Assembly (NCBI RefSeq): GCF_014207605.1
Contig: NZ_JACHHI010000005.1
Location: 1-64,000 of the forward strand
Reading direction: 5' to 3'
Length of the DNA: 64,000 bases
Source: Negativicoccus succinicivorans
GTDB lineage: Bacteria > Bacillota > Negativicutes > Veillonellales > Negativicoccaceae
A model generated the notes under the pieces. The model did no database searches. It worked only from the letters and a program-made list of their open reading frames with translations, and was not told the origin of the DNA. Position numbers and translations under genes: made by a program. This document shows, piece after piece, positions 6,528 to 30,279 of this stretch. Position 1 is the first letter of the stretch. Every line of letters begins with the position of its first letter.

Positions 6528-7526
6528 TTAGTCGCAAAGCTGCGCCGTCTTCGCCAGCTCCCCATCAATAGTAATTCCCAACGTGTTGGCAGCCGAACGA
6601 CTGATCAACGGGGCTTGCGCTGCCGGCAACTCAATGGCAAGCGTTTGCGGTTGCGCATTTCCTTTCAGAATTTTAACCGCCATTTTACCGGCACGATAAC
6701 CGATCTGATAATAATCCACGGAAAGGGCTGCCAGTGCGCCTTCCCGCACATAACTTGCGGCCGCACCGATGACCGGAATGCGGGCGGCGTTCGTCACGTT
6801 AATCAACGTCGGTAAGGCAGATGCAATGACGTTGTCCGTCGGTACGTAAATCACATCGACACGACCGCACAATGCCTGTGCGACTTGTGCCAAATCGTTG
6901 ACATTGCTAACCGTTGCCTCCGTCACACTGAGCCCTTCGGCTTGCGCTGCGGTCACAAAACTTTTCGCCTGTAACTCACTGTTGATTTCGCCGGAATTAT
7001 AAATGATCCCAACCCGTTTGGCAGTCGGCAATAATCGTTGCAACAATTGTACCTGCTCCGCTTCCGGTGTCCGATCACTTGTCCCGGTGACATTCGTACC
7101 CGGCGTTGCATTTGTTTTCACGAGTTTCGCCGATTCATAATCGGAAACGGCTGTCCCGACGATCGGAATCGTCGCCGTTTCGTTCGCCATTGTCTGCGCC
7201 GCCGGTGTCGAAATCGCTCCGATCAGATGCACATTTTGGCTGACAAAACGCTGCGCGATCGCTTTCAGATTGGATTGTTCGCCTTGCGCATTTTCCTGCA
7301 TAATGGTAATCGCTTTAGCGGGGTACGCTTCTTGGAGCGCTGCAACGAAACCGCGATTCGCCTCATCCAGCGACGGATGTTGCGCTATTTGAACAATGCC
7401 TACGACCGGATTGTCTGTGCCTTGCACATCCGTCGTTTTGCCGAAAAATTGAGTGCCCACCGCGACTATGCCTACCACTCCCAAAATAACTGCCCAACGT
7501 TTACTGCTCCATTGCATTTTTTTCAC
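6528..7526 (-). CDS. TrpX-like ABC transporter substrate-binding protein (PF04392 family)
   Basis: A protein of up to 332 residues with an N-terminal hydrophobic segment (about 12-28, AVILGVVGIVAVG). A two-lobed periplasmic-binding fold follows, with NPVVGIVQIAQHPSLD, VHLIGAISTPAAQ, PIVGTAVSDY, KRVGIIYNSGE, VIYVPTDN and GYRAGKMAVKIL. No lipobox Cys is visible, so it may be secreted or signal-anchored. The first possible codon is GTG (7526); the ATG at 7517 is better spaced from GAGGGAG. Family members predicted to bind tryptophan are encoded in trpXYZ operons, and the leader here is a Trp-type T-box. Unlike those operons, no permease or ATPase gene adjoins it. Confidence 0.8.
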   Translation of the reverse strand: MKKMQWSSKRWAVILGVVGIVAVGTQFFGKTTDVQGTDNPVVGIVQIAQHPSLDEANRGFVAALQEAYPAKAITIMQENAQGEQSNLKAIAQRFVSQNVHLIGAISTPAAQTMANETATIPIVGTAVSDYESAKLVKTNATPGTNVTGTSDRTPEAEQVQLLQRLLPTAKRVGIIYNSGEINSELQAKSFVTAAQAEGLSVTEATVSNVNDLAQVAQALCGRVDVIYVPTDNVIASALPTLINVTNAARIPVIGAAASYVREGALAALSVDYYQIGYRAGKMAVKILKGNAQPQTLAIELPAAQAPLISRSAANTLGITIDGELAKTAQLCD

Positions 7527-7536
7527 GCTCCCTCTA

Positions 7537-7567
7537 AATAAAAACGTCCCTTCGCCAAGAAGGGACG
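7537..7567 (-). terminator. Second (gene-proximal) terminator of the T-box leader
   Basis: The hairpin CGTCCCTTC...GAAGGGACG (7545-7567) is followed on the minus strand by TTTTTATTT. It lies about 20 nt before the start codon of the TrpX-like gene. It would be prevented when the adjacent T-box core forms the antiterminator. Confidence 0.85.
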
Positions 7568-7604
7568 ACGGGACGCGGTCGCGGTACCACCCTAATTATC
7601 AAAC

Positions 7605-7649
7605 AAAAAAGGATGGCACCCAGGGACGGAAAACTCCGCGGTACCACCC
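7605..7649 (-). terminator. First terminator of the T-box leader
   Basis: The first T-box core GGGTGGTACC pairs with GGTGCCATCC (7611-7620 on the plus strand) through 10 positions including two G-U pairs. A small inner CGGA/TCCG stem and a T6 tail complete it. The T-box core is itself the 5' arm, so antitermination and termination are mutually exclusive. Confidence 0.75.
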
Positions 7650-7840
7650 TAATTATCATTTGATCAACTCATGACGCATTAACGACCGTCACGCCGTTCC
7701 CGCCTACTTATTTCAGCGGGAAAGCTCCGGAAAGAACTTCGGCGACCAATTCGTACCGTCTTGCACCATCCGCCGGCTCTCTGTGACTCATTGATAGCGT
7801 ACTTTTTTCCTTCATTGCCATTGACTTGTAAATTTTTCAT

Positions 7841-7869
7841 ATTGTAACAAACGAAATTTTATTTGTCAA
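7841..7869 (-). promoter_or_regulatory. Promoter of the T-box/TrpX-like transcript
   Basis: The minus strand reads TTGACA (7864-7869), a 17-nt spacer, then TACAAT (7841-7846). The -35 box lies inside the last codons of msrB. This gives a leader of about 300 nt before the TrpX-like gene. Confidence 0.85.
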
Positions 7870-8299
7870 ATGATTTGGTAAATATTTCTTTATATTTGCC
7901 GTAACCCGCTTCATCCAGCTGCTCATACGGAATAAATCGTAATGCGGCAGAGTTAATACAATACCGCAAACCGGTCTCTGTCGGCCCATCAGGAAATACA
8001 TGTCCTAAATGCCCACCGTTGCTGCGCACTTCCGTACGGGGCATGACCGGGATGCTCGTATCGCGATGTTCGCTGACCGGCGCATCGCCAAGCGTCCGAT
8101 CAAAGCTCGGCCAGCCGCAGCCGGCATCAAATTTATCTTCACTCGAAAAAAGTGGCTCTCCGGTGACCACGTCTACGTACAGTCCCGGTGCTTCCTGATC
8201 CCAAAATTCATTTTGAAACGGCGGTTCGGTCGCATTTTCTTGTGTGACACGATACTGCATATCGGTCAGATGCGCCAGTTGGCTCGGCTTTTCTTTCAT
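7859..8299 (-). CDS. msrB: Peptide-methionine (R)-S-oxide reductase MsrB
   Basis: A 146-residue enzyme repairing methionine-R-sulfoxide in proteins. It shows the family core [10 protein letters not shown] (Cys61, likely resolving), [11 protein letters not shown], and the catalytic RYCINSAAL (Cys114). The two CxxC zinc pairs of many MsrB proteins are absent. It is translationally coupled to the upstream cupin gene (ATGA overlap, 8296-8299). No msrA is nearby. Its 3' end holds the -35 box of the next transcript. Confidence 0.96.
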
Positions 8300-29796: not shown

Positions 29797-30031
29797 AAAA
29801 TAAAAAAACCACCTGCTGCAGAGGCGTTGAAACGCGGTTCCACTCTGCTTTACAGATAGCTGTATCTCGATCGTCGTAACGGGACTTTACCGTTGCTGCG
29901 TACTCATTTTCTGCAGCACCACTCCGGGAGGCACTTCAACGTTGGTTGCCAAGCGAACTCACAGCCACGATCCGCTCTCTCTTAAGACAACACCGACGTT
30001 TACTTTTTCCGTTCATCGTGTATTTTCAATA
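29797..30031 (-). promoter_or_regulatory. T-box leader of cysES, tRNA-Cys specific
   Basis: The minus-strand leader has AAGAGAGAGCGGATCGTGG (stem I with AG bulge), a GAA-G-TGC specifier-loop layout implying codon UGC (Cys), and the T-box core AGAGTGGAACCGCG. It ends before cysE at GGTGG-TTTTTTT. Uncharged tRNA-Cys should relieve termination and raise expression of serine acetyltransferase and cysteinyl-tRNA synthetase. The exact terminator pairing is less clear than in the other T-box. Confidence 0.93.
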
Positions 30032-30037
30032 TAGTCT

Positions 30038-30066
30038 AGTGTAACGAAAAATGATAATTTTGTCAA
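30038..30066 (-). promoter_or_regulatory. Promoter of the cysES operon
   Basis: The minus strand reads TTGACA (30061-30066), a 17-nt spacer, then TACACT (30038-30043). The -35 box starts 4 nt beyond the 3' stem of the upstream structured RNA. Confidence 0.85.
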
Positions 30067-30069
30067 CTT

Positions 30070-30279
30070 TAAAACTGTTTATCGGCTGACCTGGTCTTTG
30101 CCCCCACACTCGCCTGCTGGAACTTTCGCTCCTCTCGTCACTATTCGCCCTCTCGGTTTTACCGGCAGGTCTTACTTCTAAGCCGCACCATGCTCAAAAA
30201 CGTTTTGTTTTCTTACGTGGGTCGTTTTGCCTGCGACTGGCCTCGACTTGCAACCACAGACCCGTAAACAGTTTGCCTC
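30070..30279 (-). ncRNA. Structured non-coding RNA with own promoter, possibly 6S RNA
   Basis: A minus-strand transcript of about 205 nt is predicted from a strong promoter at 30280-30308. Its 5' segment AAACTGTTTA-CGGGTC is complementary to its 3' segment GACC...CCG-A-TAAACAGTTT, closing the molecule end to end. Inside are CTTA-GAAG-TAAG, CGGT-AAA-ACCG and GGAGC-GAAA-GTTCC hairpins and a GTCTGT/AGAC region. No open reading frame is supported. Length and the closing stem fit 6S RNA (ssrS), but the many small hairpins are less rod-like than usual, so the family is uncertain. Confidence 0.6.

Follow-up and report, generated by a model that had tools for sequence, protein, structure and literature searches.

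A predicted tRNA-Phe T-box leader with one decoding domain and two discriminator/terminator modules in Negativicoccus succinicivorans

Within the 64,000-nucleotide (nt) stretch of the Negativicoccus succinicivorans genome that we analyzed (contig NZ_JACHHI010000005.1, positions 1 to 64,000; here, the window), the reverse strand carries a gene for a TrpX-like substrate-binding protein of an ABC transporter, preceded by an RNA leader of the T-box family (Table 1). The protein scores 316 bits against the NCBIfam TrpX model, below the curated cut-off of 390. No permease or ATPase gene follows it; the next genes are yggS-like, sepF-like, and proC-like, and the genome's four BPD_transp_2 permease genes all lie on other contigs. 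A strong promoter-like site lies upstream of the leader, which therefore probably has a promoter to itself; the site coincides in part with the end of an msrB-like gene (SelR domain).

TABLE 1 Features of the double-module leader and its downstream gene (window coordinates)
Feature	Coordinates	Strand	Evidence or remark
Promoter-like site, TTGACA-17-TACAAT	7841..7869	-	11/12 consensus bases; predicted start near 7834
T-box leader RF00230, one stem I	7558..7824	-	Rfam
Specifier codon UUC (Phe) in GAA-G-UUC-U	7734..7736	-	Rfam alignment
Purine string (GAGUUG) and shared stem III 5' strand (UUGAUCAAAU)	7658..7670	-	Folding; covariation across leaders
Repeat copy 1 (TGATAATTAGGGTGGTACCGCG)	7637..7658	-	Exact 22-nt repeat
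Proximal stem III 3' strand (GAUAA) before core 1	7653..7657	-	Weak in window sequence
Antiterminator 1 (A1/A2 helices around core 1)	7622..7650	-	Folding, -9.4 kcal/mol
T-box core 1, GGGTGGTACCGCG, expected partner of tRNA 3' ACCA	7637..7649	-	Sequence match
Terminator 1: 7649-7640 pairs 7620-7611, then T6 at 7610-7605	7605..7649	-	Folding, -22.6 kcal/mol
Distal stem III 3' strand (GUUUGAUAA); pairs 7667-7658, encloses module 1	7596..7604	-	Minimum-energy fold of full leader; permutation tests
Repeat copy 2	7580..7601	-	Exact 22-nt repeat
T-box core 2, GGGTGGTACCGCG, identical to core 1	7580..7592	-	Sequence; core used by Rfam model
Antiterminator 2	7561..7593	-	Folding, -8.7 kcal/mol; matched by RF00230
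Terminator 2: 7567-7559 pairs 7553-7545, then T5 at 7544-7540	7540..7567	-	Folding
ABC transporter substrate-binding protein, TrpX-like	6528..7526 (ATG 7517 or GTG 7526)	-	PF04392, E 1e-74

The Rfam covariance model reports a single T-box leader here, at 127.8 bits (E = 5e-28; cut-off, 93 bits). A stem I and stem II region comes first, and behind it lie two antiterminator/terminator modules with a spacing of 57 nt. This arrangement had been described in a first-pass annotation made from the sequence alone, which noted a T-box core occurring twice within an exact 22-nt repeat, a terminator option for each core, and only one specifier stem upstream; our analysis bears out all three points. The repeat unit consists of a stem III 3' strand (GAUAAUUA) followed by the T-box core. 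The annotation had also called for a covariance scan, and a permissive scan of 7400-8000 returned no second stem I at E values up to 10. The second complete stem I that defines a fully tandem T-box was therefore not found in this interval. With a repeated discriminator/terminator part and no second stem I, the leader instead falls among the partially tandem T-boxes, in keeping with the suggestion that it might belong to a known class.

In both modules, sequence and predicted folding give a mutually exclusive antiterminator and terminator, the latter with a U-run. Terminator 2 is canonical and takes the 3' strand of antiterminator 2. Terminator 1 pairs with the 5' strand of core 1, that is, with the tRNA-binding strand, and this holds for the branch of Phe and Tyr leaders to which the window belongs. 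At least seven core pairs enter terminator 1 in 39 of 41 nonredundant leaders (mean, -17.2 kcal/mol). The serC, trpD, liv, aspS, and trpB-like leaders have a canonical terminator 1. In the window leader, the energy model does not give a stable proximal stem III: including this helix costs about 2 kcal/mol.

The annotation had implied tRNA-Trp as the ligand, a reading that we reject: the specifier is UUC rather than UGG, and both cores carry a UGGU bulge, whereas the tRNA-Trp of this genome has G73-CCA and would call for UGGC. The same genome encodes a tRNA-Phe(GAA) ending in A73-CCA, which matches the bulge of both cores. The specifier codon and the UGGN bulge thus both match one tRNA of the same genome, as expected of a T-box. 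Relatives read GAAGUUC or GAAGUAC at the specifier site (UUC or UAC), which indicates that this branch, the window included, senses Phe or Tyr.

Several Sporomusales genomes carry two neighboring TrpX-like operons, one with a UUC leader and the other with a UAC leader; such adjacent duplicates with double leaders occur at L112/L113, L018/L047, and L097/L108. Their sequences suggest that the duplicated operons encode paired Phe and Tyr transporters. Some leaders have two cores with different bases at the position that pairs with the discriminator (UGGC and UGGU in L063, L072, L189, L204, L205, L207, and L216). One core would then pair with G73 and the other only by wobble, so that, judging by base pairing, the checkpoints of these leaders may differ in stringency. 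The window holds a further T-box (29817-30270, reverse strand), which directly follows a raiA RNA and has a UGC (Cys) specifier and a UGGA bulge; the tRNA-Cys of this genome has U73.

The exact double-core layout is present in both Negativicoccus genomes examined. We then searched more widely for the pattern of two cores 25 to 55 nt apart and found it in 57 of 380 Negativicutes genomes, representing 25 of 102 genera. Spacings of 56 to 86 nt added 30 further genomes, for a joint total of 87/380 at spacings of 25 to 86 nt. A reversed-pattern control gave 0 matches among the same 380 genomes. In a phylum sample of 398 genomes there were 5 matches, 2 of them outside Negativicutes, and a scan of 85,000 species genomes yielded a few more outside that class; the layout is rare elsewhere in Bacillota. 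Roughly half of the hits in the broad scan proved to be simple repeats rather than T-boxes and were excluded (GC-rich Actinobacteria, Myxococcales, 'delta' PRO4, Verrucomicrobia).

The genes downstream of double-core leaders encode transporters (sodium:solute symporters of PF00474, TrpX-like proteins, family 3 binding proteins, and liv-type ABC proteins) and enzymes (DAHP synthase, with three cores; serC; trpD; aspartyl-tRNA synthetase; a TrpB-like enzyme; and a class-V aminotransferase). No single-module orthologs of the symporter leaders were found; the symporter genes have either double leaders or, in paralogs, no recognizable T-box core. An Rfam scan of 16 double-core loci placed exactly one T-box above the cut-off in 14 and none in the remaining 2 (L063 and L222). 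Among the 14 relatives, the model set its discriminator on core 1 in some and on core 2 in others, which indicates that both cores suit T-box geometry. Three consecutive cores on one T-box hit were seen at L069, L081, and L104 (DAHP synthase) and at L225 (liv-type, genome G334). A record labeled Syntrophothermus sp. UBA1445 (L044) holds a Negativicutes-like Tyr double leader with a TrpX-like gene and is possibly misbinned or the product of transfer.

Across 72 leaders, a stretch before core 1 (u) is complementary to a stretch running from the U-run of terminator 1 to core 2 (d). Separate MAFFT alignments of the two strands misaligned the helices and recovered no pairs, and RNAalifold on alignment A1 returned only an invariant core-core helix. 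For this reason we compared the duplex energies of cognate and permuted u/d strands, a test that carries its own fitting control. In these permutation statistics, from which the relatedness of the leaders is not fully removed, the 41 nonredundant leaders had a cognate mean of -10.8 kcal/mol against -7.2 kcal/mol for permuted pairs (z = -9.5; 0/5000), with z = -5.9 and -4.4 when relatives were collapsed into 15 and 7 clusters, and the 72 leaders in 46, 35, 24, and 17 clusters gave z = -9.7, -9.3, -7.6, and -6.0, the observed value being reached in 0/100,000 permutations. Nineteen leaders hand-picked as independent, from different genes and lineages, averaged -14.1 kcal/mol against -8.7 kcal/mol when mismatched (z = -8.4; 0/20,000).

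Strands that have changed and yet still match include AUCUGAU/AUCAGAU, AUCGAU/AUCGAU, AUCCGA/UCGGAU, GGAUUUUGCGUC/GACGCAGGGUCU, and GGCUGUUG/CAGCAGCC. All 72 leaders have a distal helix that is stronger than their local hairpin, and the local 5' strand overlaps the distally paired bases at 70%, versus 43% expected. The u/d complementarity could in part be a by-product of duplication, yet in each leader it is stronger than the local hairpin. The window's own distal helix is one of the weaker helices (-5.9 kcal/mol in a near-identical sister, rank 10 among the 19) and falls below that of most relatives. Before both cores, an AA is conserved across relatives. In most leaders, two 3' strands go with a single 5' purine string and a single 5' strand of stem III; the liv-type leaders seem to depart from this, their helix lying outside the purine string. 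The rule to which these sequences point as common to the family is one stem III 5' strand that would serve two or three 3' strands. Structural work has placed stem III and its flanking purines (RRRxG-stem III-AA) within the element that recognizes the tRNA end (PMC7583486).

The anatomy of the leader, its tRNA specificity, its conservation, and its long-range complementarity come directly from these computations; from them we infer the order of events, a second reading of the same tRNA, and the consequence for leak. In the reading that we favor, with a probability of roughly 0.6, the leader would be a transcriptional T-box for tRNA-Phe in which one decoding domain serves two serial discriminator/terminator checkpoints. 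Uncharged tRNA-Phe would bind stem I, and its ACCA end would pair with core 1 and hold antiterminator 1, allowing RNA polymerase to pass terminator 1. The newly transcribed distal 3' strand would then take over as the partner of the lone stem III 5' strand upstream. The resulting helix would turn module 1 into a side arm and bring core 2 to the canonical position relative to stem I, where the same bound tRNA would have to stabilize antiterminator 2 to get past terminator 2. Because success would be needed at both checkpoints, leak should drop and the response should sharpen. Tying both steps to the same tRNA follows from the single stem I and from the fit of both bulges to one tRNA. Counting against a serial arrangement, terminator 1 is favored over antiterminator 1 by about 13 kcal/mol in tRNA-free energies.

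A speculative extension goes further and makes the leader a relay. Hairpin 1 would refold over core 1 as the distal stem III forms, evicting the tRNA 3' end and handing the same stem-I-bound tRNA to core 2, or on to a third core in some leaders. Proofreading would thus be repeated within each transcription event, and the use of core 1 as a terminator strand would act as a reset device. We regard this version as possible, though we lean against it.

The first-pass annotation had left two options for the second checkpoint, either re-sensing of the same tRNA or a second hairpin that lowers basal read-through, and the evidence tilts toward the former. Were only module 1 to sense tRNA well, terminator 2 would mainly cut basal leak without a second tRNA test. 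The single decoding domain is compatible with this, terminator 2 is a strong and ordinary terminator, and the tRNA end might remain on core 1. Module 2, however, exceeds the needs of a leak-lowering hairpin: it retains a complete core, a separate stem III 3' strand bearing the AA motif, and conserved pairing to the upstream stem III 5' strand. Core 2, antiterminator 2, and the preceding AA are conserved as much as their counterparts in module 1, and selection appears to act on the long-range helix that leads to core 2. In addition, the gene would stay silent behind a strong terminator closed to every tRNA. We therefore consider a purely leak-cutting role for terminator 2 unlikely.

Slightly less probable again is the converse, that the leader is a canonical T-box with a long stem III, in which only module 2 regulates while module 1 and hairpin 1 form a stem III arm that rarely terminates. 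The minimum-energy fold of the full window leader does join distal stem III and hairpin 1 into one long arm followed by module 2, and RF00230 likewise places its discriminator on core 2 and reads module 1 as extra sequence inserted into stem III. Against this, a run of about six U follows hairpin 1 in nearly all leaders, core 1 is intact with its UGGN bulge, and antiterminator 1 can be drawn in nearly all leaders as well, features that would be needless in a mere arm. A recent and largely neutral tandem duplication would explain why the 22-nt repeat is exact in the window, but we reject it as very improbable, since the layout spans many Negativicutes families and other Bacillota and diverged leaders retain both cores, the U-runs, and compensating long-range pairs. 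Least probable of all is an OFF state in which core 1 pairs with core 2, which the palindromic GGUACC of UGGU cores would permit over 10 bases and which the A1 consensus fold contains, but these pairs come entirely from invariant bases with no compensatory change, are absent from the window's minimum-energy fold, and are partly lost in leaders with UGGC cores.

Serial checking by a single decoding domain thus remains our preferred reading, and the layout is, on the comparative sequence evidence, apparently not an oddity but a new, conserved variant of the partially tandem T-box. It supplies a large family of such T-boxes together with one architectural rule, and it supports re-annotating some of the TrpX-like binding proteins as probable transporters of Phe or Tyr. 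If the proposed working is true, a single ligand-reading domain of an RNA would be used repeatedly, for one decision after another, on a principle akin to proofreading, and these leaders would become tools for steep tRNA sensing.

Targeted searches, covering few subscription journals, found no paper that describes more than one antiterminator within a T-box. Partial T-box duplications also appear in earlier comparative work. Partially tandem T-boxes are mentioned, with unknown modes of action, in a 2020 review (PMC7583486), and the searchable literature yielded no mechanism, lineage survey, or long-range helix for them. Full tandem T-boxes, with two or three complete copies, occur in trp, thrS, and ilv operons (PMC12452182). 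A published survey calls three contiguous copies exceptional; another contig of the genome studied here (C2:91793-92688, forward strand; L004, L012, and L013) carries four complete, near-identical tandem T-boxes with a period of about 233 nt before a class-III aminotransferase gene.

The leader resembles a transcriptional T-box (RF00230) in its stem I with a specifier, its stem III and T-box bulge discriminator, its antiterminator/terminator switch, and its downstream amino-acid gene. Unlike the canonical form, it has two discriminator/terminator modules for one stem I, its terminator 1 recruits the core 1 5' strand rather than the antiterminator 3' strand, and its stem III 5' strand has two possible partners. 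It shares with partially tandem T-boxes the repetition of part of the T-box without a second stem I (PMC7583486). With fully tandem T-boxes it shares serial terminators and an expected steeper response, but in those every copy has a sensor domain (PMC12452182), whereas here one sensor would serve two or three platforms.
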